NCBI GenBank assembly: GCA_010672585.1
Contig: JAAHGF010000040.1
Coordinates: 1-53,994 of the forward strand
Origin: Okeania sp. SIO1I7
GTDB taxonomy: Bacteria; Cyanobacteriota; Cyanobacteriia; Cyanobacteriales; Microcoleaceae
Direction: 5' to 3'
Length of the DNA: 53,994 nt
Position 1 is the stretch's first letter. Each line of letters opens with the position of its first letter. The notes below the pieces were generated by a model, which worked only from the letters and a program-made list of their open reading frames with translations, was not told the origin of the DNA and made no database searches. This document shows positions 4,375 through 46,010 of the stretch, piece by piece. The translations under genes were made by a program, and so were the position numbers.

Positions 4375-6925
4375 GTTAAACTAAGCCAGGCAAGTTACCT
4401 TACCCGACTCGTCTTCAGAACCGGACGTGAGACTTTCATCTCATCACGGCTCCTCTCCTAAACGTCCCTTTTCATGGGTACACCCCTGCCTTAATATCAA
4501 CATATCATCAACCCATAAATAACCTTCAGGTAAGTCCTGTAACTTCGGTTGTATGTATGTGTTTTTATCTAAGGCAGTTTTAGTATCGTGGCAATGTCGG
4601 TGCAACAATTGTTTATTCTTATATGTGTTGTCACCACCTTTAGACCTTGGAATTATATGGTCAACTTCAATTAGGTCGGTTGGTCTAAAGTGTAATCCAC
4701 AAGATGCGCATTTACCTTTTTGTCGCTTAAGTAGCGTTGTTACTTCCTTCCTTACGGCTGGATGTTTGCCAATTCTGCTACCCCAATAAGTCCAGTCACC
4801 GTCAAAGGGTGATTTATTACCTTTCACTTTGATGTGTCGTACAATAGGCACATCTGAGTGTCGGTTTAGTATATAGTCGCCGTCGTTAAATTCCCAGTTT
4901 CTGGTTTTGCTAACTTTGGGGAAATACTTTTTCTTAACCCAAGTAACGGACTTATTTGGATGCCTTCTACTTGCCCATCTCCATAATCTCTTCCATAGGA
5001 GATGGTCTGTTTTACTGAATATCTCTTTGCTAACTACGGTTGAAAAGTAGTTAGCCCATCCTCTTATTATCGGGTTTAATTTGGTTATTAAAGCTTTTAC
5101 AGAGGCAGTTTTATTAGAATTAAGTATTTCTGCCAATTTTCGATAATGAGTTTTTATACTCTTAGGGGACGGTTTAATCAGCGTCTTAAATCCTTGTTTG
5201 GCTGTATTTACTTTCCATTGCCTGATAGTGAAACCTAAGAAGTCAAATCCTGGTTTATTCCCTTCATATTCTTCCAAGGTGTGGGCAATTCTGGTTTTTT
5301 CTGGCTTTAGTTCTAATCCTGCCTGGTTTAACCATTCCTGTATAACGGTTTTTGCTTCTAACACTACTTTGATGTCTTCATGTAGGATTACAAAGTCATC
5401 AGCATAGCGTATTAGATTGAGACTTTTTACTTTATCTTGCCAGCCTTTTTGACGACCTTTTGCATTTCTAAAGTCTATGGTTTTGGCAAATTCTTTTAGT
5501 CTTTCTTCCATACCGTGCAGGGCGATGTTTGCTAGCAGGGGACTTATTACCCCTCCCTGTGGTGTTCCTTCCACAGATTCTAGGAATTGATTATTGTCAA
5601 ACACTCCAGACTTTAACCATTGTTTGATTAATCGTCTGTAAGGAGATTGACCTATCTTTCCTAGAAGTGCATCATGGTTAATTCGGTCGAAACACTTAGA
5701 TATGTCAGCATCTAATACATATTTAGGTTTCATGTGGACACTGAGATAGATTGCATCAATAGCATCATGTGTTGACCGTCCTGGCCTAAAACCATAGCTA
5801 TTAGGTTCAAAACGTGCCTCCCACTCTGGTTCCATACCTAACTTAACCAAGGCTTGTAACGCTCTATCATACACAGTAGGTATGCCTAACGGGCGTTTTT
5901 CATCTTTCCCTGGTTTTGGTATATAGACTCTGCGGGTCGGGCTTGCCTTGAGGTGGCGTGATGAGAGTAGGTTCACCAAGTTGAATCTTTGTATGGGTGT
6001 CAGGTTTTTGATTCCATCTACCCCGGAAGTTTTCTTTCCCTGGTTATCCTGTGTCACGCGCCTAACAGCTAGCAACCTAGCGTAATAACTTTTTAAAAGA
6101 AGTTTTTGGTATCTGTGCATCTTGCGGAGTTCGCCACGGCTGGATGCTCTGTAAATCAATTTTTGTAATTTGAATACAGATTTCTCTACCTTCTTCCAAT
6201 TGATATCCTTCCATTTTTGGACCGGATTGATTGAAATTTGTGAAGGTATGTCGCCTATATCCCTTGCTACGCTTAAAAATGGCTTAGGATTCCCTAACTT
6301 TCTTTTCAGTGTCTGAGCTTTATTCATTACTATTCATTGCCTTACATTACGTCTAACAGTGAGGTACGTCTGCAAATTAATGCTTCTTACCCAATCCTAC
6401 TCTCCCTAAAACCTACGTCCAAAGCGTAGATTGACCTTGAATGGCTTCCTAAGTTCTCGACCTATATTCTTAGGATGTCTTAGAGAGGTTTCCTCGTTCC
6501 CTTATTCCTTTAATTACGACTGATTTAGTGGGGTAAAATCTCCCGGAGGGTTCAGCATGGTTGTCGATAATCCCGGATACATAAGATTATCCAATGACCC
6601 TCTGACTTTCGTCCTACATTCCTTAGCTACCTTTGGAATGGTTTAGCTTGACGGGAGTTTGATTACCTTTCTGTTCGTCCACTTGTCAATCTTTGCTCGC
6701 GGTATCGTTCCTCGGTAACTGGTATTGTCCCGCTTTTAGACCAGCTTCATCAGTTTGATGTTCAGTCTCCCCAATGTGGCCTATGCTGTCAACCTAACAA
6801 CAAGGCGGATGGAATTTCACCACCAAGGTAATAAGAGTTATTCACAAGTCGAGGTTGTCCTCATGTGGTGACTTTGAATGGCCATTTATACCTAGTCACC
6901 TAGTTTAGTGGCCAACGAGTCGCAC
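4375..6925 (-). mobile_element. Group II intron (2551 bp) inside cruF
   Basis: A complete group II intron on the same strand as its host gene. The 5' end reads GTGCGAC (minus strand from 6925), matching the GUGYG consensus; the 3' end reads TTTAAC (ending 4375), matching the AY end. A domain V-like hairpin (GAGCCGTGATGAG ... CCGGTTCTGAAG) lies at about 4415-4452, followed by a short domain VI. An intact reverse transcriptase ORF occupies domain IV. The EBS1 loop GTATCC (plus-strand 6575-6580) pairs with the last six exon bases GGATAC (6926-6931). A close relative lies at 36806-39326. Excision restores the cruF frame exactly. Confidence 0.92.
4444..6327 (-). CDS. ltrA: Group II intron-encoded reverse transcriptase/maturase with HNH endonuclease
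   Basis: A 627-residue multifunctional intron protein expected to assist splicing and carry out retrohoming. The N-terminal RT-0 region is followed by the fingers/palm with motifs FRPGRSTHDAI, EGTPQGGVISPLLANI and the catalytic IRYADDFVIL (YADD at about 308-311). The thumb/maturase domain X (LNPIIRGWANYF) follows, then a C-terminal HNH endonuclease at about 540-581 (CASC, DHI, HRHCHD). All key residues look intact, so the intron may still be mobile. It is 13 residues longer than its relative at 37401-39245, mostly in an RT loop before YADD (about 283-302). Confidence 0.95.
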   Translation of the reverse strand: MNKAQTLKRKLGNPKPFLSVARDIGDIPSQISINPVQKWKDINWKKVEKSVFKLQKLIYRASSRGELRKMHRYQKLLLKSYYARLLAVRRVTQDNQGKKTSGVDGIKNLTPIQRFNLVNLLSSRHLKASPTRRVYIPKPGKDEKRPLGIPTVYDRALQALVKLGMEPEWEARFEPNSYGFRPGRSTHDAIDAIYLSVHMKPKYVLDADISKCFDRINHDALLGKIGQSPYRRLIKQWLKSGVFDNNQFLESVEGTPQGGVISPLLANIALHGMEERLKEFAKTIDFRNAKGRQKGWQDKVKSLNLIRYADDFVILHEDIKVVLEAKTVIQEWLNQAGLELKPEKTRIAHTLEEYEGNKPGFDFLGFTIRQWKVNTAKQGFKTLIKPSPKSIKTHYRKLAEILNSNKTASVKALITKLNPIIRGWANYFSTVVSKEIFSKTDHLLWKRLWRWASRRHPNKSVTWVKKKYFPKVSKTRNWEFNDGDYILNRHSDVPIVRHIKVKGNKSPFDGDWTYWGSRIGKHPAVRKEVTTLLKRQKGKCASCGLHFRPTDLIEVDHIIPRSKGGDNTYKNKQLLHRHCHDTKTALDKNTYIQPKLQDLPEGYLWVDDMLILRQGCTHEKGRLGEEP

Positions 6926-36805: not shown

Positions 36806-39326
36806 GTGCGACTCGTTGGCCACTAAACCAGTACATCTGGGTATAAATGGCCGTTCCAAGTCACCACATGAGGACAACCTCGACTTGTGAATAACTCTTA
36901 TTACCTTGGTGGTGAAATTCCATCCGCCTTGTTGTTGGGTTGACAGCATAGACCACACTGGTGAGACTGAATATCAAACTGGTGAAGCTGGTCTAAAAGC
37001 GGGACAATACCAGTTACCAGGGACAATACCGCAAGCAAAGGTTGACAAGTGGACGAACAGGAAGGTAATCAAACTCTCGTAAATATTATCCATCCCAAAG
37101 GTAGCTATGGGATGTGGGGCGAAAGTCAGAGGATCTATGGATAACCCTATCTGTAGAAGGTTATTAGCAACCATACTGAATCCTCCGGGAGATTTTACCT
37201 CACTAAATCAGCCGTAATAAAGGAATAAGGGAACGAGGAAACCTCTCTAAAACACCTAAGAATATAGGTCGATAACTTAGGAAGCCATTCAAGGTCAATC
37301 TGCACAGAGGTTGCAGGTTTTAGGGAGAGTAGGATTAGATAAGAAGCATTAATTTGCAGACGTATCTACTGTTAGACGTAATGTAAGGCAATCAATAGTA
37401 ATGAATAAAGCTCAGACACTAAAAAGAAGATTAGGAAACCCTAAACCATTTTTAAGTGTAGCAGGGGATACAGAGGACATACCTTCACAAGTCTCAATCA
37501 ATCCTAACCCTCGATGGAAGGATATTGACTGGAAGAAGGTAGAGAAGTCTGTGTTCAAATTACAAAAATTGATTTACAGAGCATCCATGAGTGGCGAACT
37601 CCGCAAGATGCACAGATACCAAAAACTTCTTTTAAAAAGCTATTATGCCAGGTTGCTAGCTGTTAGGCGCGTGACACAGGATAACCAAGGAAAGAAAACT
37701 GCCGGGGTAGATGGAATCAAAAACCTGACACCCATACAAAGACTCCACTTGGTGAACCTACTCCCATCACGACACCTTAAGGCAAGCCCGACCCGCAGGA
37801 TCTATATACCAAAACCAGGTAAAGATGAAAAACGTCCATTAGGCATCCCTACGATGTACGACAGAGCGTTACAAGCCTTGGTTAAGTTGGGAATGGAACC
37901 AGAGTGGGAGGCACACTTTGAACCTAACAGTTATGGTTTTAGACCAGGACGGTCAACGCATGATGCTGTCGAGGCCATCTATAAAAGCATCAATCAAAAA
38001 CCTAAATATGTTCTTGATGCTGACATATCAAAATGTTTTGACCGAATTAACCATGATGCACTGTTGAGAAAAGTAGGTCAAACACCCTACAGACGATTAA
38101 TCAAGCAATGGTTAAAGGCCGGAGTGTTTGACAACAAACAATTCTCAAAAACTGTGGAAGGTACACCACAGGGAGGGGTAATATCACCTTTACTAGCAAA
38201 CATCGCCCTACACGGCATGGAAGAATGTCTAAATAAATTTGCCGAAACTTTACCAGGAGATAAACGAGGCAATAAAAGGGCATTATCCTTAATACGCTAT
38301 GCTGATGACTTTGTAATCCTACATAAAGATATTAAAGTAGTCCTGCAAGCAAAAGCCGTAATACAGGAATGGTTAAACCAAGTAGGATTAGAACTAAAAC
38401 CAGAAAAAACCAAAATTGCCCACACCTTGGAAGAGTATGAAGGTAATAAACCCGGATTTGACTTCTTAGGTTTCACAATCAGGCAACATCAGGTAAAGAC
38501 AGTCAAACAAGGATTTAAGACGCTGATTAAACCATCCCCCAAGAGTCTTAAGACTCACTATCGGAAATTGGCTGATATATGTGACTCTCACAAGAATGCT
38601 TCTACCAAAGCTCTAATAGCTAAATTAAATCCGGTAATAAGAGGATGGGCTAACTACTTTTCCACTGTAGTCAGTAAGGAAGTGTACAACAAAGTTGATG
38701 ACCTCCTATGGACAAGAATATGGAGATGGGTAAGTAGAAGGCATCCTAATAAGTCGGCCAAATGGGTAAAGAAAAAGTATTTTCCCAAAGTTAAAAACAC
38801 CAGAAATTGGCTACTTAACGACTGTGAATATGTACTAAACCGACACTCAGATGTTCCCATTGTAAGGCACATCAAGGTAAAAGGTAATAAATCCCCTTAT
38901 GACGGTGACTGGACTTATTGGAGCAATAGAATCGGCAAATACCCAGGCGTAAGGAAAGAAGTCACAACGCTGTTAAAACGGCAAAAGAATAAATGCGCAT
39001 CTTGTGGACTAACCTTTAGACCAAATGACCTTATGGAAGTAGACCATATAAAACCAAGGTCTGAAGGCGGTGACAACACATATAAGAATAAACAACTGTT
39101 GCACCGACATTGTCACGATACTAAAACTGCATCAGACAAAAAGACATATCCAAAATTTAAACCCCAGGATTTACCTGATAACTATATATGGATTGACGAT
39201 ATGTTAATTCTGAAACAGGATGTACCCATGAAAAGGGACGTTTAAGAGAGGAGCCGTGATGAGGTGAAAGTCTCACGTCCGGTTCTGAAGACGAGTCGGT
39301 TTGGTAACAAACTGGCTTAGTTTAAC
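36806..39326 (+). mobile_element. Group II intron (2521 bp) inside the CYTH gene
   Basis: A second copy of the intron family seen in cruF. The 5' end is GTGCGACTCGTTGGCC (36806), identical over the first 20 or so bases to the cruF intron; the 3' end is GGCTTAGTTTAAC (39326). A domain V-like hairpin lies at about 39252-39290, and the RT/HNH ORF is intact. Its EBS1 loop CTGTAGA (37151-37157) pairs with the exon end TCTACAG (36799-36805). Both introns lie in the sense direction of their host genes, so splicing could restore function. Confidence 0.92.
37401..39245 (+). CDS. ltrA: Group II intron-encoded reverse transcriptase/maturase with HNH endonuclease
   Basis: A 614-residue relative of the protein at 4444-6327, nearly collinear with it. 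RT motifs FRPGRSTHDAV, EGTPQGGVISPLLANI and IRYADDFVIL (YADD at about 300-303), domain X (LNPVIRGWANYF) and HNH (CASC at about 532, DHI, HRHCHD to about 573) are all intact. The RT loop before YADD is short (LPGDKRGNKRA) where the other copy has a longer, different sequence. The C-terminus also differs, ending at MKRDV. It should serve its own intron and could act on the other in trans. Confidence 0.95.
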   Translation: MNKAQTLKRRLGNPKPFLSVAGDTEDIPSQVSINPNPRWKDIDWKKVEKSVFKLQKLIYRASMSGELRKMHRYQKLLLKSYYARLLAVRRVTQDNQGKKTAGVDGIKNLTPIQRLHLVNLLPSRHLKASPTRRIYIPKPGKDEKRPLGIPTMYDRALQALVKLGMEPEWEAHFEPNSYGFRPGRSTHDAVEAIYKSINQKPKYVLDADISKCFDRINHDALLRKVGQTPYRRLIKQWLKAGVFDNKQFSKTVEGTPQGGVISPLLANIALHGMEECLNKFAETLPGDKRGNKRALSLIRYADDFVILHKDIKVVLQAKAVIQEWLNQVGLELKPEKTKIAHTLEEYEGNKPGFDFLGFTIRQHQVKTVKQGFKTLIKPSPKSLKTHYRKLADICDSHKNASTKALIAKLNPVIRGWANYFSTVVSKEVYNKVDDLLWTRIWRWVSRRHPNKSAKWVKKKYFPKVKNTRNWLLNDCEYVLNRHSDVPIVRHIKVKGNKSPYDGDWTYWSNRIGKYPGVRKEVTTLLKRQKNKCASCGLTFRPNDLMEVDHIKPRSEGGDNTYKNKQLLHRHCHDTKTASDKKTYPKFKPQDLPDNYIWIDDMLILKQDVPMKRDV

Positions 39327-41159: not shown

Positions 41160-42479
41160 TTACATAAATTCTCGTGGGTCGGTAACATATCCAGTCAGTG
41201 CTGAAGCTGCTGCTGTATAGGGAGAAGCTAAATAAACTTGTGCCTGTTTATTCCCCATTCGACCAGGGAAATTACGATTAGTTGTAGACACACAAATTTC
41301 TGGTTCATTTAATCGCCCAAATGTATCTTTTGGTCCGCCTAAACAAGCAGCACAAGAAGGAGCAGCAGGTTCAATACAACCAGCATCTAAAAATATTTCT
41401 GAGAGGGTTTTTCCATCATGTTTTAAGTTAAATAAATCCTCATAAACTTTCTGAGTTGCTGGTACTAAATAAGTAGGAACTTTCACCTGATGACCTTTAA
41501 TAAGTTTAGCTGCATGAAGAAAGTCAGAAGTTTTTCCACCTGTACAAGAACCAATATAAACTCGGTCAATTTTGACATCTTTACAGTTACGAGCAAGTTC
41601 CTTATTATCTGGAGAATGAGGTTTAGCTACGACTGGTTCTAATTTTGTCACATCGTAGGAGCGGTCGCTATAAAATGTCGCATTTTCATCTGTCTGAAAT
41701 GACTCAAATGTTTTATCTGTTCGACCTTGCAAATATTTAAAAGTAGTTTCATCCGCAGCGATAACTCCATTTTTACCACCTGCTTCAATGACCATATTGC
41801 AAAGGGTCATTCGTTCTTCCATTGTCATCTGTTTCACCGTCTCTCCAGCAAATTCCATTGTTCTATAAGTAGCGCCGGAAACAGAAATATCTCCAATAAT
41901 TTGCAGTATTAAATCTTTTGCTAATAAATAGTCCGGCATTTCTCCGTTCAAGACAAACCGCATAGTTGCTGGCACTTTTACCAACAGTTTGCCAGTACCC
42001 AAGATAAAAGCAGCATCGGTATTGCCGATACCTGTGGCAAATTGTCCAAAAGCACCTGCATTACAAGTATGGGAGTCTGTGCCAAATAATACTTCCCCTG
42101 GACGGGTGTGCCCTTCTTGGGCGAGAGCAACGTGGCAAACTCCTTTGTAGTCTGGGTTCGCTTTGAAGTTTGAGCGATCGATAATGTCGTAAAAGTATTT
42201 GATGTTTTGTTCTTGGGCAAAGTCTCGCAGAATATCTACGTTACGGTTAGCTCGTTTGTCGGTGGTGAAAATATAGTGGTCTGGGATAAGAACGATTTTT
42301 TCCCGGTCCCAAACTTGGGCTTTTTCGCCAAATTCTTTTTTAAAGATGCCAATAGTACCAGGACCACACACATCATGGGTCATTAGTACGTCTACGTTAA
42401 TCCAAATATTTTCTCCTGGGGTAACGGTAGATTTTCCTGATGCTTTGGCCAGGATTTTTTCAACCATAGTCATTGCCAT
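41160..42479 (-). CDS. leuC: 3-isopropylmalate dehydratase large subunit
   Basis: A 440-residue aconitase-family Fe-S enzyme of leucine synthesis, isomerising 2- to 3-isopropylmalate with a LeuD partner. The start at 42479 (MAMTMVEKILAKASG) has AGGAAG about 6 nt upstream; the open frame continues 25 codons further but without family sequence. Motifs include MTHDVCGPGTIGIF, FGTDSHTCNAGAFGQFATG, and the cluster cysteines in YIGSCTGGKTSDF and PSCAACLGG. It is the shorter HacA/LeuC form, so a homoaconitase-like substrate cannot be excluded. leuD is not adjacent. Confidence 0.9.
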   Translation of the reverse strand: MAMTMVEKILAKASGKSTVTPGENIWINVDVLMTHDVCGPGTIGIFKKEFGEKAQVWDREKIVLIPDHYIFTTDKRANRNVDILRDFAQEQNIKYFYDIIDRSNFKANPDYKGVCHVALAQEGHTRPGEVLFGTDSHTCNAGAFGQFATGIGNTDAAFILGTGKLLVKVPATMRFVLNGEMPDYLLAKDLILQIIGDISVSGATYRTMEFAGETVKQMTMEERMTLCNMVIEAGGKNGVIAADETTFKYLQGRTDKTFESFQTDENATFYSDRSYDVTKLEPVVAKPHSPDNKELARNCKDVKIDRVYIGSCTGGKTSDFLHAAKLIKGHQVKVPTYLVPATQKVYEDLFNLKHDGKTLSEIFLDAGCIEPAAPSCAACLGGPKDTFGRLNEPEICVSTTNRNFPGRMGNKQAQVYLASPYTAAASALTGYVTDPREFM

Positions 42480-42632
42480 AAATGCTTCCTCTACTGGTGA
42501 TAATTTAAGTAGTTTACAAGTGTATTTTAGACAACCTAATATTGTTTCGGGCAAGTCATTTCAGTTATCAGTTATCAGTTATCAGCACCTCATGGAATAG
42601 GGAGGCTACGAAAATACTGAAGTTTATTTTCT

Positions 42633-43131: not shown

Positions 43132-43362
43132 ATACTTTTGACTGAAATGAAGTGTGTCTTACATTCTGAGGAAACCTCAGAATTACACACTCGCTTTTAA
43201 ATGCATGACTTTTAACTTCCCCATAGTGCCACTAGAACGAGCAATATTTGAAAAAAATTTACGGGTAGATTTATTAATAATAAGCACCATTAAAAGGGCG
43301 TTGCTGAGTAGTAATGATTTTTAGATTAAGTATCAACGCAAAATATAAGTTTTTCTATTTTA

Positions 43363-43462
43363 GTTGAATAAAAAGTCATGCGCAGGTACGAGTAGAACCC
43401 AATAATTACATACTACTATGATTTTTTTGAGGATGCAAGGAGAAATACCTTGCCGTTTTTTT
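43363..43462 (+). ncRNA. First array unit, promoter not evident
   Basis: It carries the conserved body and a terminator hairpin GCAAGG-AGAAATA-CCTTGC followed by CGTTTTTTT (43435-43462). The sequence upstream of 43363 differs from the other units and has no TTGATT/TATATG pair, so it may be silent or read from another promoter. Confidence 0.3.
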
Positions 43463-43680
43463 GGTGCTTCACAAGATGATGTCTTGTATTTGTGAAGATA
43501 GCGTTGGCGGAGCCTAGCGTTAGCTACATCGCTTCTGCATGAGTCAATGTATGGATGTGTTGATGGGGTGAAAATTTTTCGGTGTCACTACTTCTTGTCA
43601 CTTCTTTATTATTGAAGTGCTTCACCGGATGATAGTTTTCTCTGCTTTGATTGCGTGAGTATGCCTTCTATATGTATTCA

Positions 43681-43801
43681 GTCACGATATGCTGTTTTTG
43701 GGTTGAATAAAAAGTCATGCGTAGGTACGAGTAGCACCCAATAATTACATACTACTATGATTTTTTTGAGGATGCAAGGGGAAAATCCTTGCAGTTTTTT
43801 T
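43681..43801 (+). ncRNA. Candidate small RNA, array unit 2
   Basis: TTGATT (43647-43652) and TATATG (43669-43674), 16 bp apart, form a promoter-like pair; a start near 43681 is estimated. The transcript would end at a hairpin GCAAGG ... CCTTGC followed by AGTTTTTTT (43774-43801), about 121 nt. Start and expression are predictions. Confidence 0.4.
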
Positions 43802-43995
43802 GGTGCTTCACAAGATGATGTATTGCATTTGTGAAGATAGTGATCGCTTCTGCATGAGTCAATGTATGGATGTGTTGATGGGGTGAAAATTTTTCGGTGT
43901 CACTACTTCTTGTCACTTCTTTATTATTGAAGTGCTTCACCGGATGATAGTTTTCTCTGCTTTGATTGCGTGAGTATGCCTTCTATATGTATTCA

Positions 43996-44117
43996 GTCAC
44001 GATATGCTGTTTTTGGGTTGAATAAAAAGTCATGCGTAGGTACGAGTAGCACCCAATAATTACATACTACTATGATTTTTTTGAGGATGCAAGGGGAAAA
44101 TCCTTGCAGTTTTTTTT
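43996..44117 (+). ncRNA. Candidate small RNA, array unit 3
   Basis: This has the same layout as unit 2: TTGATT at 43962-43967, a predicted start near 43996, and the hairpin GCAAGG ... CCTTGC with an eight-T run ending at 44117. The body is almost identical to unit 2, with length variation in the T-run. Confidence 0.4.
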
Positions 44118-44311
44118 GGTGCTTCACAAGATGATGTATTGCATTTGTGAAGATAGTGATCGCTTCTGCATGAGTCAATGTATGGATTTGTTGATGGGGT
44201 GAAAATTTTTCGGTGTCGCTACTTCTTGTCATTTCTTTATTATTGAAGTGCTTCACCGGATGATAGTTTTCTCTGCTTTGATTGCGTGAGTATGCCTTCT
44301 ATATGTATTCA

Positions 44312-44432
44312 GTCACGATATGCTGTTTTTGGGTTGAATAAAAAGTCATGCGCAGGTACGAGTAGCACCCAATAATTACATACTACTATGATTTTTTTGA
44401 GGATACAAGGGGAAATACCTTGCCGTTTTTTT
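44312..44432 (+). ncRNA. Candidate small RNA, array unit 4
   Basis: TTGATT at 44278-44283 with TATATG 16 bp on; the hairpin is CAAGG-GGAAATA-CCTTG (44406-44422) with a seven-T run to 44432. One outer stem base differs from the other units. Sequence after the hairpin diverges from the array. Confidence 0.4.
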
Positions 44433-44526
44433 GGAGCTTCACAGGATGATAATTTTCTGGATTTGTGAATATTGCGTTGGCAGAGCAACTATGGTAGCTA
44501 CATCGCTTCTAGATGAGTAAATATAT

Positions 44527-44640
44527 GGCGTTGCATAGAGTGGGGGATGAATTTTAGGCTCTCAAACACGGGAAGTATAAAAAACACGCGCATGGGATGT
44601 ACCTTCTCCCAAAAGTTTCATCCCGCCCCTCAGCAACGCC
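44527..44640. mobile_element. 114-bp MITE with GGCGTTGC ends
   Basis: GGCGTTGCATAGAGTGGGGG at the left and its imperfect complement ending CAGCAACGCC at the right, with GGGATGAA and TTCATCCC further in, make long terminal inverted repeats. It has no coding capacity and lies directly after the tandem RNA-like array. Confidence 0.6.
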
Positions 44641-44736: not shown

Positions 44737-45024
44737 ATGGCTTTAACTAATTTAGAAATTTTTGAGCAATTAGATGAAGTGGTAAAAGGTTTGCTATGGA
44801 TGAGTGAATCTGATTATCCTTTTGAAGTTTTTATTTGGGAATTTGGAGAGGGAATTTCATTAAATAATGAAATTGTTTTGAAAATTACTAAACATTCTTT
44901 AGAGACTACAGTTAGGGAAATATTTTTACCACTTTTGCTTATTTCCTCTTCTCTTCTCTTATCTTCTCTAGTTTCACAACTTATCTGGAAACTATATATA
45001 TGTACTCGAAAATTTTCAACTTAA
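44737..45024 (+). pseudogene. Truncated NuiA-like (nuclease A inhibitor family) gene
   Basis: The first 65 or so residues match the N-terminus of the NuiA family, whose Anabaena founder inhibits the sugar-nonspecific nuclease NucA: IFEQLDEVVKGLLWMSESDY, then PFEVFIWEFG and NEIVLKITKH. After about residue 65 the sequence turns into a hydrophobic, low-complexity run (LLLISSSLLLSSLVSQ) encoded by TCTTCTC-type repeats and stops at 95, against about 130-140 for the family. The C-terminal half is therefore lost or replaced. No nuclease gene is adjacent. A shortened product cannot be excluded. Confidence 0.55.
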
Positions 45025-45278: not shown

Positions 45279-46010
45279 CTAATTAATAAATTCCGCCATA
45301 CCTAAATAGCGAATTTCTTGGGGAGTAACTTCAAATCTACAGGGCAAAATTTCAACTCCTTCTTTAACAGCTTCTCTCAAGATTTCACCATAATCAGGGT
45401 CAGCAATATCTCCAGGGGCAAACTGATAACAATCGCCACGATTTATAAAAAATAAACATACTGCCCTTTCCCCTTCTTTTACTACTTCAATTAATTCTCG
45501 CAAATGCTTTTGTCCTCTTTCTGTAACCGTGTCTGGAAATAAAGCAAGTCTTTGATTTGCCCAAGTCGTATTTTTTACCTCAAGATAAATATTTTGACTA
45601 TTGCTAATTAACTTAAAATCTACCCTACTTTTTTTATCTTTTCCATAAACAACTTCTGGTTTAACTTCACAATAATCTCCCAATTCAGGAAATAAATATT
45701 CTGCCAAAGCTAACTTAATAATTCGATTAGGTAAAGCTGTATTAATTCCCACCCAAGTCGGTTCATTATCTGTTACTTGAATTAATTCCCAAGTATAAGT
45801 CAACTTTCGTTTAGGATTATTACTATGAGAAACCATCACAGGACTACCAGAAGCACAAACTCCTTTCATCTGACCTGTATTTGCACAGTGAGCAGTAATA
45901 ATTTCCCCAGACTTTAACTCTATATCTGCCAGAAACCTTTTATAACGTTTAATCAAAATTCCAGACTCAAGAGTTGGATATTTATAAGAGAATTTAGGAG
46001 GATTATTCAT
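45279..46010 (-). CDS. sfsA: SfsA family DNA-binding/nuclease-fold protein
   Basis: A 243-residue protein of the SfsA (sugar fermentation stimulation) family. The N-terminal OB-like part has FLADIELKSGEIITAHCANT and GQMKG; the C-terminal part has a PD-(D/E)XK-type core (KKSRVDFKL then IYLEVKNTTWA) and ALFPDTVTERGQKHLREL. The name comes from E. coli maltose metabolism; the biochemical role is a DNA-binding or nuclease activity that is poorly defined. Length is normal. It stands alone, flanked by families B and D. Confidence 0.92.
   Translation of the reverse strand: MNNPPKFSYKYPTLESGILIKRYKRFLADIELKSGEIITAHCANTGQMKGVCASGSPVMVSHSNNPKRKLTYTWELIQVTDNEPTWVGINTALPNRIIKLALAEYLFPELGDYCEVKPEVVYGKDKKSRVDFKLISNSQNIYLEVKNTTWANQRLALFPDTVTERGQKHLRELIEVVKEGERAVCLFFINRGDCYQFAPGDIADPDYGEILREAVKEGVEILPCRFEVTPQEIRYLGMAEFIN

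Follow-up and report, generated by a model that had tools for sequence, protein, structure and literature searches.

In Escherichia coli, the Sib/Ibs and Ldr/Rdl repeats are made of an antisense RNA paired with a toxin-peptide gene. The array described here resembles them in being composed of near-identical small transcription units, predicted ones in our case, that stand in tandem and at many loci. However, both E. coli families have their toxin-peptide gene, whereas inspection by eye reveals no evident conserved reading frame in the present units. In the sections of PMC9045159 and PMC6133370 that concern it, NsiR1 of Nostoc sp. PCC 7120 is presented as a tandem array of small RNA genes in which each copy has its own promoter and the copies diverge slightly from one another; according to the former, the copies, which differ a little, act on different targets (PMC9045159). 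The NsiR1 promoters are assigned to the DIF+ class, with the DIF1 motif TCCGGA at −35 (PMC6133370), and a 57-nt NsiR1-like RNA has been reported in Limnospira indica (PMC8400943).

Here we analysed a stretch of 53,994 nucleotides of Okeania sp. SIO1I7 (contig JAAHGF010000040.1), called the window below. The array that it contains is like NsiR1 in that a short cyanobacterial non-coding RNA would be encoded in tandem by slightly divergent copies, each with its own, predicted, promoter. Nevertheless, the original prediction had held the array to be unlike NsiR1, and this is borne out by promoter class and location. The NsiR1 array lies upstream of hetF, whereas the window array stands between two genes that we read as leuC and sfsA. 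At −35, NsiR1 is reported to carry TCCGGA (PMC6133370), whereas the units of the window have TTGCAT or TTGTAT and those of their relatives TTGACA. The present family moreover comprises at least 40 clusters in one genome; it is by promoter and location that we set it apart from NsiR1. Inside many units a GTAG precedes a GGGG...CCCC palindrome, as in the GTAG-tagged REP palindromes described in PMC3733652. Unlike the latter, as far as they are characterised in that source, the unit is about 125 bp long and has a promoter, the GTAG is not fixed, and the palindrome is absent from relatives of the g10 type. In the literature searched, six sequence strings of the family were absent and nothing was recognised as the family, which is not proof of unpublished status.

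Results

Anatomy and orientation of the units

The array exists, although the first reading placed it on the wrong strand. Four direct repeats start at 43363, 43702, 44017 and 44333, with spacings of 339, 315 and 316 bp, in line with the four repeats about 315-339 bp apart that had been claimed. On the minus strand they form units 1 to 4, at 43363-43479, 43702-43818, 44017-44134 and 44333-44449. The frames on either side, at 41160-42554 and 45279-46010 (both minus), are presumably leuC and sfsA, names that we give by sequence resemblance. A further, short frame, at 44737-45024, matches NuiA (nuclease A inhibitor) over positions 2-56 of the 130 of the Pfam model, which is under half, and looks truncated. 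The window also holds two group II introns, at 4375-6327 and 37401-39326, seen as long frames beside Rfam matches.

In unit 1, the fixed 3′ end (43363-43379) is followed, with rising coordinates, by the leader (43380-43403), then by the promoter and an upstream motif. The putative −35 box of this unit, TTGCAT at 43433-43438, is homologous to the TTGACA of the relatives, and 17 nt separate it from the −10 box TAGTAT at 43410-43415, in which columns 48 and 52 of the alignment are at 100%. The same two hexamers are read on the minus strand at 43772-43777 and 43749-43754 in unit 2 and at 44087-44092 and 44064-44069 in unit 3; unit 4 has TTGTAT at 44403-44408, again 17 nt from TAGTAT (44380-44385). 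The fixed upstream motif, TCATCTTGTGAAGC in the minus reading, lies at about −69 in unit 1 (43466-43479), and at 43805-43818, 44121-44134 and 44436-44449 in the three others. Judging from the position of the promoter, the RNA of unit 1 would have its 5′ end near 43403 and reach at least 43363; the corresponding predicted RNAs of units 2, 3 and 4, all on the minus strand, start near 43742, 44057 and 44373 and span 43702-43742, 44017-44057 and 44333-44373. A plus-strand RNA of about 120 nt had been proposed in their place; the predicted RNA is on the minus strand, starts near plus position 41 of the unit and is about 41 nt long or longer.

Several of the elements that underlay the plus-strand proposal do exist. 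GCAAGG/CCTTGC-type hairpins and T-runs are found in the units (with ACAAGG in unit 4), TTGATT and TATATG are seen 16 nt apart 5′ of units 2-4 on the plus strand, and the minus-strand frames, said to be disrupted across the array, differ from copy to copy. A plus-strand small RNA of about 120 nt ending at the hairpin and T-run would make use of both of these in the window units, but we consider it very improbable. No plus-strand promoter is shared: among 337 units with 114 independent upstream contexts, −10-like hexamers between positions −100 and −13 reach a maximum of 8, against a mean shuffled maximum of 8.9, so that there is no positional enrichment and TTGATT/TATATG is local to one sub-type. 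Conservation continues beyond the T-run into the fixed motif GCTTCACARRATGA, which is more than a plain terminator would require. The hairpin itself overlaps the minus-strand −35 box and is absent from several other subfamilies, and the consensus promoters of the relatives are on the opposite strand.

On the minus strand, the distant relatives display TTGACA, separated by 17-18 nt from a box that reads TATAAT or nearly so, and then a short leader and TTGA-N8-TCAA. An exact TTGACA is present in 51 of the 59 distinct candidate sequences from distant genera, the 8 others lacking it, and a spacer of 17-18 nt to a TATAAT-like box in 56; some of the 59 are chance matches, the shuffled control having given 8 at the same score cut-off. 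In the units of the Okeania clade, columns 48 and 52 (plus numbering) alone reach 100% between head and tail; column 53 is at 89% and columns 74-76 are at 95-97%. By their place in the alignment, columns 48/52/53 and 74-76 are the putative −10 and −35 positions homologous to those of the relatives, 17 nt apart. At fixed offsets, raw with respect to indels, 227 of the 337 units have TAnnnT, 244 have TTG and 212 have the TG of an extended −10. A generic promoter score barely distinguishes the Okeania units from shuffled sequences at a threshold of 8.5 (67/114 versus 54/114), nor does it at a threshold of 9 (14 versus 21 of 114), so the case for the promoter rests on position and homology. The whole arrangement fits a minus-strand promoter belonging to each copy, which in the relatives would be a near-perfect sigma70 promoter; of the traits of tandem multi-copy bacterial small RNA genes, one promoter per copy is found here at the level of sequence. 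The fixed motif about 69 nt upstream appears to be a feature of the Okeania clade, and belongs to what we regard as the best-supported anatomy of the unit.

Copies and clusters in the genome

The unit of about 125 bp is present in about 120 copies in the genome of Okeania sp. SIO1I7 (9.48 Mb, 109 contigs). Its recurrence is not due to chance, because the 24-nt head, with at most 3 mismatches, occurs at 121 places and the reversed pattern used as a control at none. Searching this genome at the DNA level with one unit gave 46 matches, and an iterated profile gave 59, partial ones counted, in 15 loci. The loci that we examined contain 117 heads. The number of mismatches is 2 or fewer in 115, while the two heads with 3 mismatches (window 53629; L179 2916) are probably chance or decayed. 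The 115 fall into at least 40 clusters, a lower bound since 100 of the 121 places were located, and two or more copies are present in 32 of the 40. The window array is one of these clusters.

Simple ORF calls place the clusters between genes, except for L021, L178 and L182, which are overlapped by an ORF of 104-297 aa. We saw no firm rule in gene orientation around the clusters, and no gene is common to the downstream neighbourhoods of the loci compared. A shared neighbour gene was considered and dropped: the arrays L021, L023, L025 and L033 are convergent to paralogous genes that we take, from their sequence, to be serine/threonine kinase-like, but only these 4 of 15 loci abut such paralogues.

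Extra lone copies of the upstream motif GCTTCACARRATGA occur between or beside the units in the spacers of L026, L027, L161, L167, L178 and L182. A separate repeat, GGCGTTGCTGAGTGGTAATGATTTTT, is found at the edges of several arrays (window 43297-43322 and 44629-44640; L026 7649 and 9480), is inverted at the two ends in L026 and has 22 places in the genome with at most 3 mismatches; it is possibly a small mobile element.

Distribution among cyanobacterial genomes

In the following tallies the genome of Okeania sp. SIO1I7 is itself counted each time. The unit used as a DNA query found matches in 14 of 59 genomes, and the head pattern was found in 4 of 291 genomes of the order, at 115 places in SIO1I7 and at 109, 106 and 16 in the three others. 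Among the matches listed, the unit is common to Okeania, Hydrocoleum sp. CS-953 and one Trichodesmium MAG. A sequence-only profile built from 61 units extended the family to 27 of 61 genomes and 8 of 11 genera of the taxonomic family; several of these have just 1-4 matches at the profile cut-off, and a laxer search of 14 of the genomes gave up to 16. A second profile, on the other strand, found matches in 16 of the 291 genomes of the order and 7 of 121 genera, including one (G084) that has no dyad and is probably chance. There was no match to the window unit in a phage collection, nor to the units of two relatives in a plasmid collection.

In two genomes of the g3 group, related units bracket Dnd-like genes (L233, 6529 and 13283; L235, 6417 and 13010). 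The bracketed genes, compared with Pfam in L233 only, match DndB, an HNH nuclease, a PAPS-reductase (DndC-like) and an AAA protein (DndD-like). In a g10 genome, a long degenerate tandem-repeat run with spurious frames (L226, 6781-15420) lies between related units.

Persistence of the arrays

About 120 dispersed copies, with 114 upstream contexts among 337 units, are what one could expect of a MITE-like DNA repeat, mobile now or formerly, which would carry an outward promoter only incidentally, multiply by transposition and tandem duplication and yield a functionless transcript; another repeat at the edges of several arrays points the same way. Three observations speak against this explanation, which we hold to be unlikely. 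The first is synteny: many arrays have counterparts at corresponding positions on other Okeania contigs, and that of the window is syntenic with contigs of SIO2C9 and SIO3B5, in a set that was chosen for containing heads and so cannot reveal empty sites. The second comes from searching four genomes with the joined flanks of six single units; both flanks were on one contig in 5 of 24 comparisons, the other 19 being unresolvable, often since the flanks are themselves repeats. The insert was kept in all five (L176 in G002, L172 in G002 and G004, L170 in G002 and G001). It measures about 126-129 nt in four of them and about 229 nt in the remaining one; among the matches listed none crosses the joined-flank junction by more than 15 nt. 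The third is that units with differing flanks remain almost identical in the final 17 nt of the predicted RNA.

Rates of change along the unit

We estimated rates from 79 nearest unit pairs with a flank divergence of no more than 12% (816 substitutions in 13845 flanking sites). The leader changes faster than the flanks (247/1888; ratio 2.22, bootstrap 95% interval 1.85-2.63), and change is far slower in the final 17 nt of the predicted RNA (8/1343; ratio 0.10), the units having been collected at no more than 2-3 head mismatches, which inflates the invariance of the head. The −35 box is also slow (15/473; ratio 0.54, 0.28-0.83), as is the spacer between the boxes (0.70), and the stretch from −35 to the upstream motif is somewhat fast (1.31, 1.03-1.61). 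The −10 box does not differ from the flanks (25/474; 0.89, 0.58-1.27), nor can a slower rate than theirs be clearly made out for the upstream motif (0.82, 0.60-1.04). In the 18 pairs with a flank divergence of at most 3%, differences are found at 38 of 429 leader sites and at 31 of 3238 flank sites, a flank figure that is depressed by the picking of such pairs; the other inner parts are there at about 1-5%. The same trend is seen in 20 pairs from other genera (leader 52/597, flanks 148/2757, dyad 5/320), which were selected for TTGACA and the dyad, so that the conservation of both is partly due to selection of the pairs.

Instead of selection for diversity, the fast leader could be due to hypermutation confined to the first transcribed bases, or to short tracts of gene conversion there. 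Its changes toggle between few states and include many transitions, as such a process would produce, but their transition/transversion make-up resembles that of the flanks and a leader consensus remains recognisable across genera; we regard this explanation as quite possible, though on balance doubtful.

Structure, coding capacity and the conserved dyad

No excess folding was detected: over 50 units the mean fold z is −0.21 on the plus and −0.36 on the minus strand, compared with −0.37 for the downstream flanks. Consensus folding of the units predicts no pairs, and pair counts for the leader stem and the dyad are the same as in shuffles. With shuffles, consensus folding and pair counts all null, a structured RNA was dropped, and the strong single-strand hairpin of integron attC sites is not seen in the fold z of these 50 units either. 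No terminator was recognised 3′ of the dyad. Rfam release 15, at the gathering score, has no match at the window units, and at four loci of relatives its matches fall outside the units.

Coding on the plus strand was rejected, as stops are visible by eye within copies, in the window units the ATG is closely followed by a TAG, and head-to-tail distances vary by single bases. On the minus strand the peptide MTFYST was rejected too, since third codon positions are also fixed and, by eye, several relatives have TAG or TAA in frame. Retron, attC and CRISPR-like readings were weighed against known motifs and dropped.

The dyad itself persists in the relatives compared, one of which has it in perfect form, TTGACTAATTAGTCAA, and it displays no compensatory change on the RNA side. 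This would suit a control site acting at the DNA level, where the promoter and a palindromic operator TTGA-N8-TCAA bind or titrate a regulator and the RNA is a by-product. Against such a site, no downstream gene is common to the loci compared, and the fast leader is left without explanation; we find it improbable.

Discussion

Sequence comparison establishes the family and its copy number here, together with a promoter layout specific to one strand and the rates of change along the unit. The window array is best read as one cluster, with four short minus-strand transcription units, of a family that counts about 120 copies in this genome and probably encodes sibling small RNAs, and we consider this reading rather likely to be correct. 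Of the multi-copy, possibly undescribed regulatory RNA locus first proposed, a multi-copy and probably undescribed RNA locus thus stands as the best reading, while the strand and the parts had been misassigned.

In each unit, a fixed upstream motif would be followed by a promoter of the sigma70 type, by a start about 7 nt beyond it, by a fast-changing leader of about 24 nt and finally by a fixed 17-nt end carrying the TGA-N8-TCA dyad. Each unit would be transcribed into a short RNA, and the resulting siblings, slightly different from one another, may find their targets by way of the variable 5′ part; the constant end could serve stability, a partner protein or control by a repressor. The arrays presumably grow by tandem duplication, which would raise both dose and diversity. 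NsiR1 is the closest working model for such a system, since different targets are described for its diverging copies (PMC9045159).

A bolder form of the sibling RNA reading, speculative and in our opinion rather improbable, is that these are guide-like small RNAs in a hundred copies, whose fast 5′ segment, attached to a frozen 3′ handle, would be under diversifying selection toward changing targets. In Okeania, Hydrocoleum and Trichodesmium, these RNAs would be aimed at mobile elements, phage or host messages, and relatives of lower copy number would be spread over the family.

A leader that changes fast, set against an end that is frozen, constitutes a clear and testable signature in otherwise dark intergenic DNA. 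If the units are transcribed, they would represent a very large family of near-identical small RNA genes in a single bacterial genome. The Trichodesmium lineage is described as having a large non-coding fraction (PMC4649490), and the units, if transcribed, would provide a concrete product for part of it.
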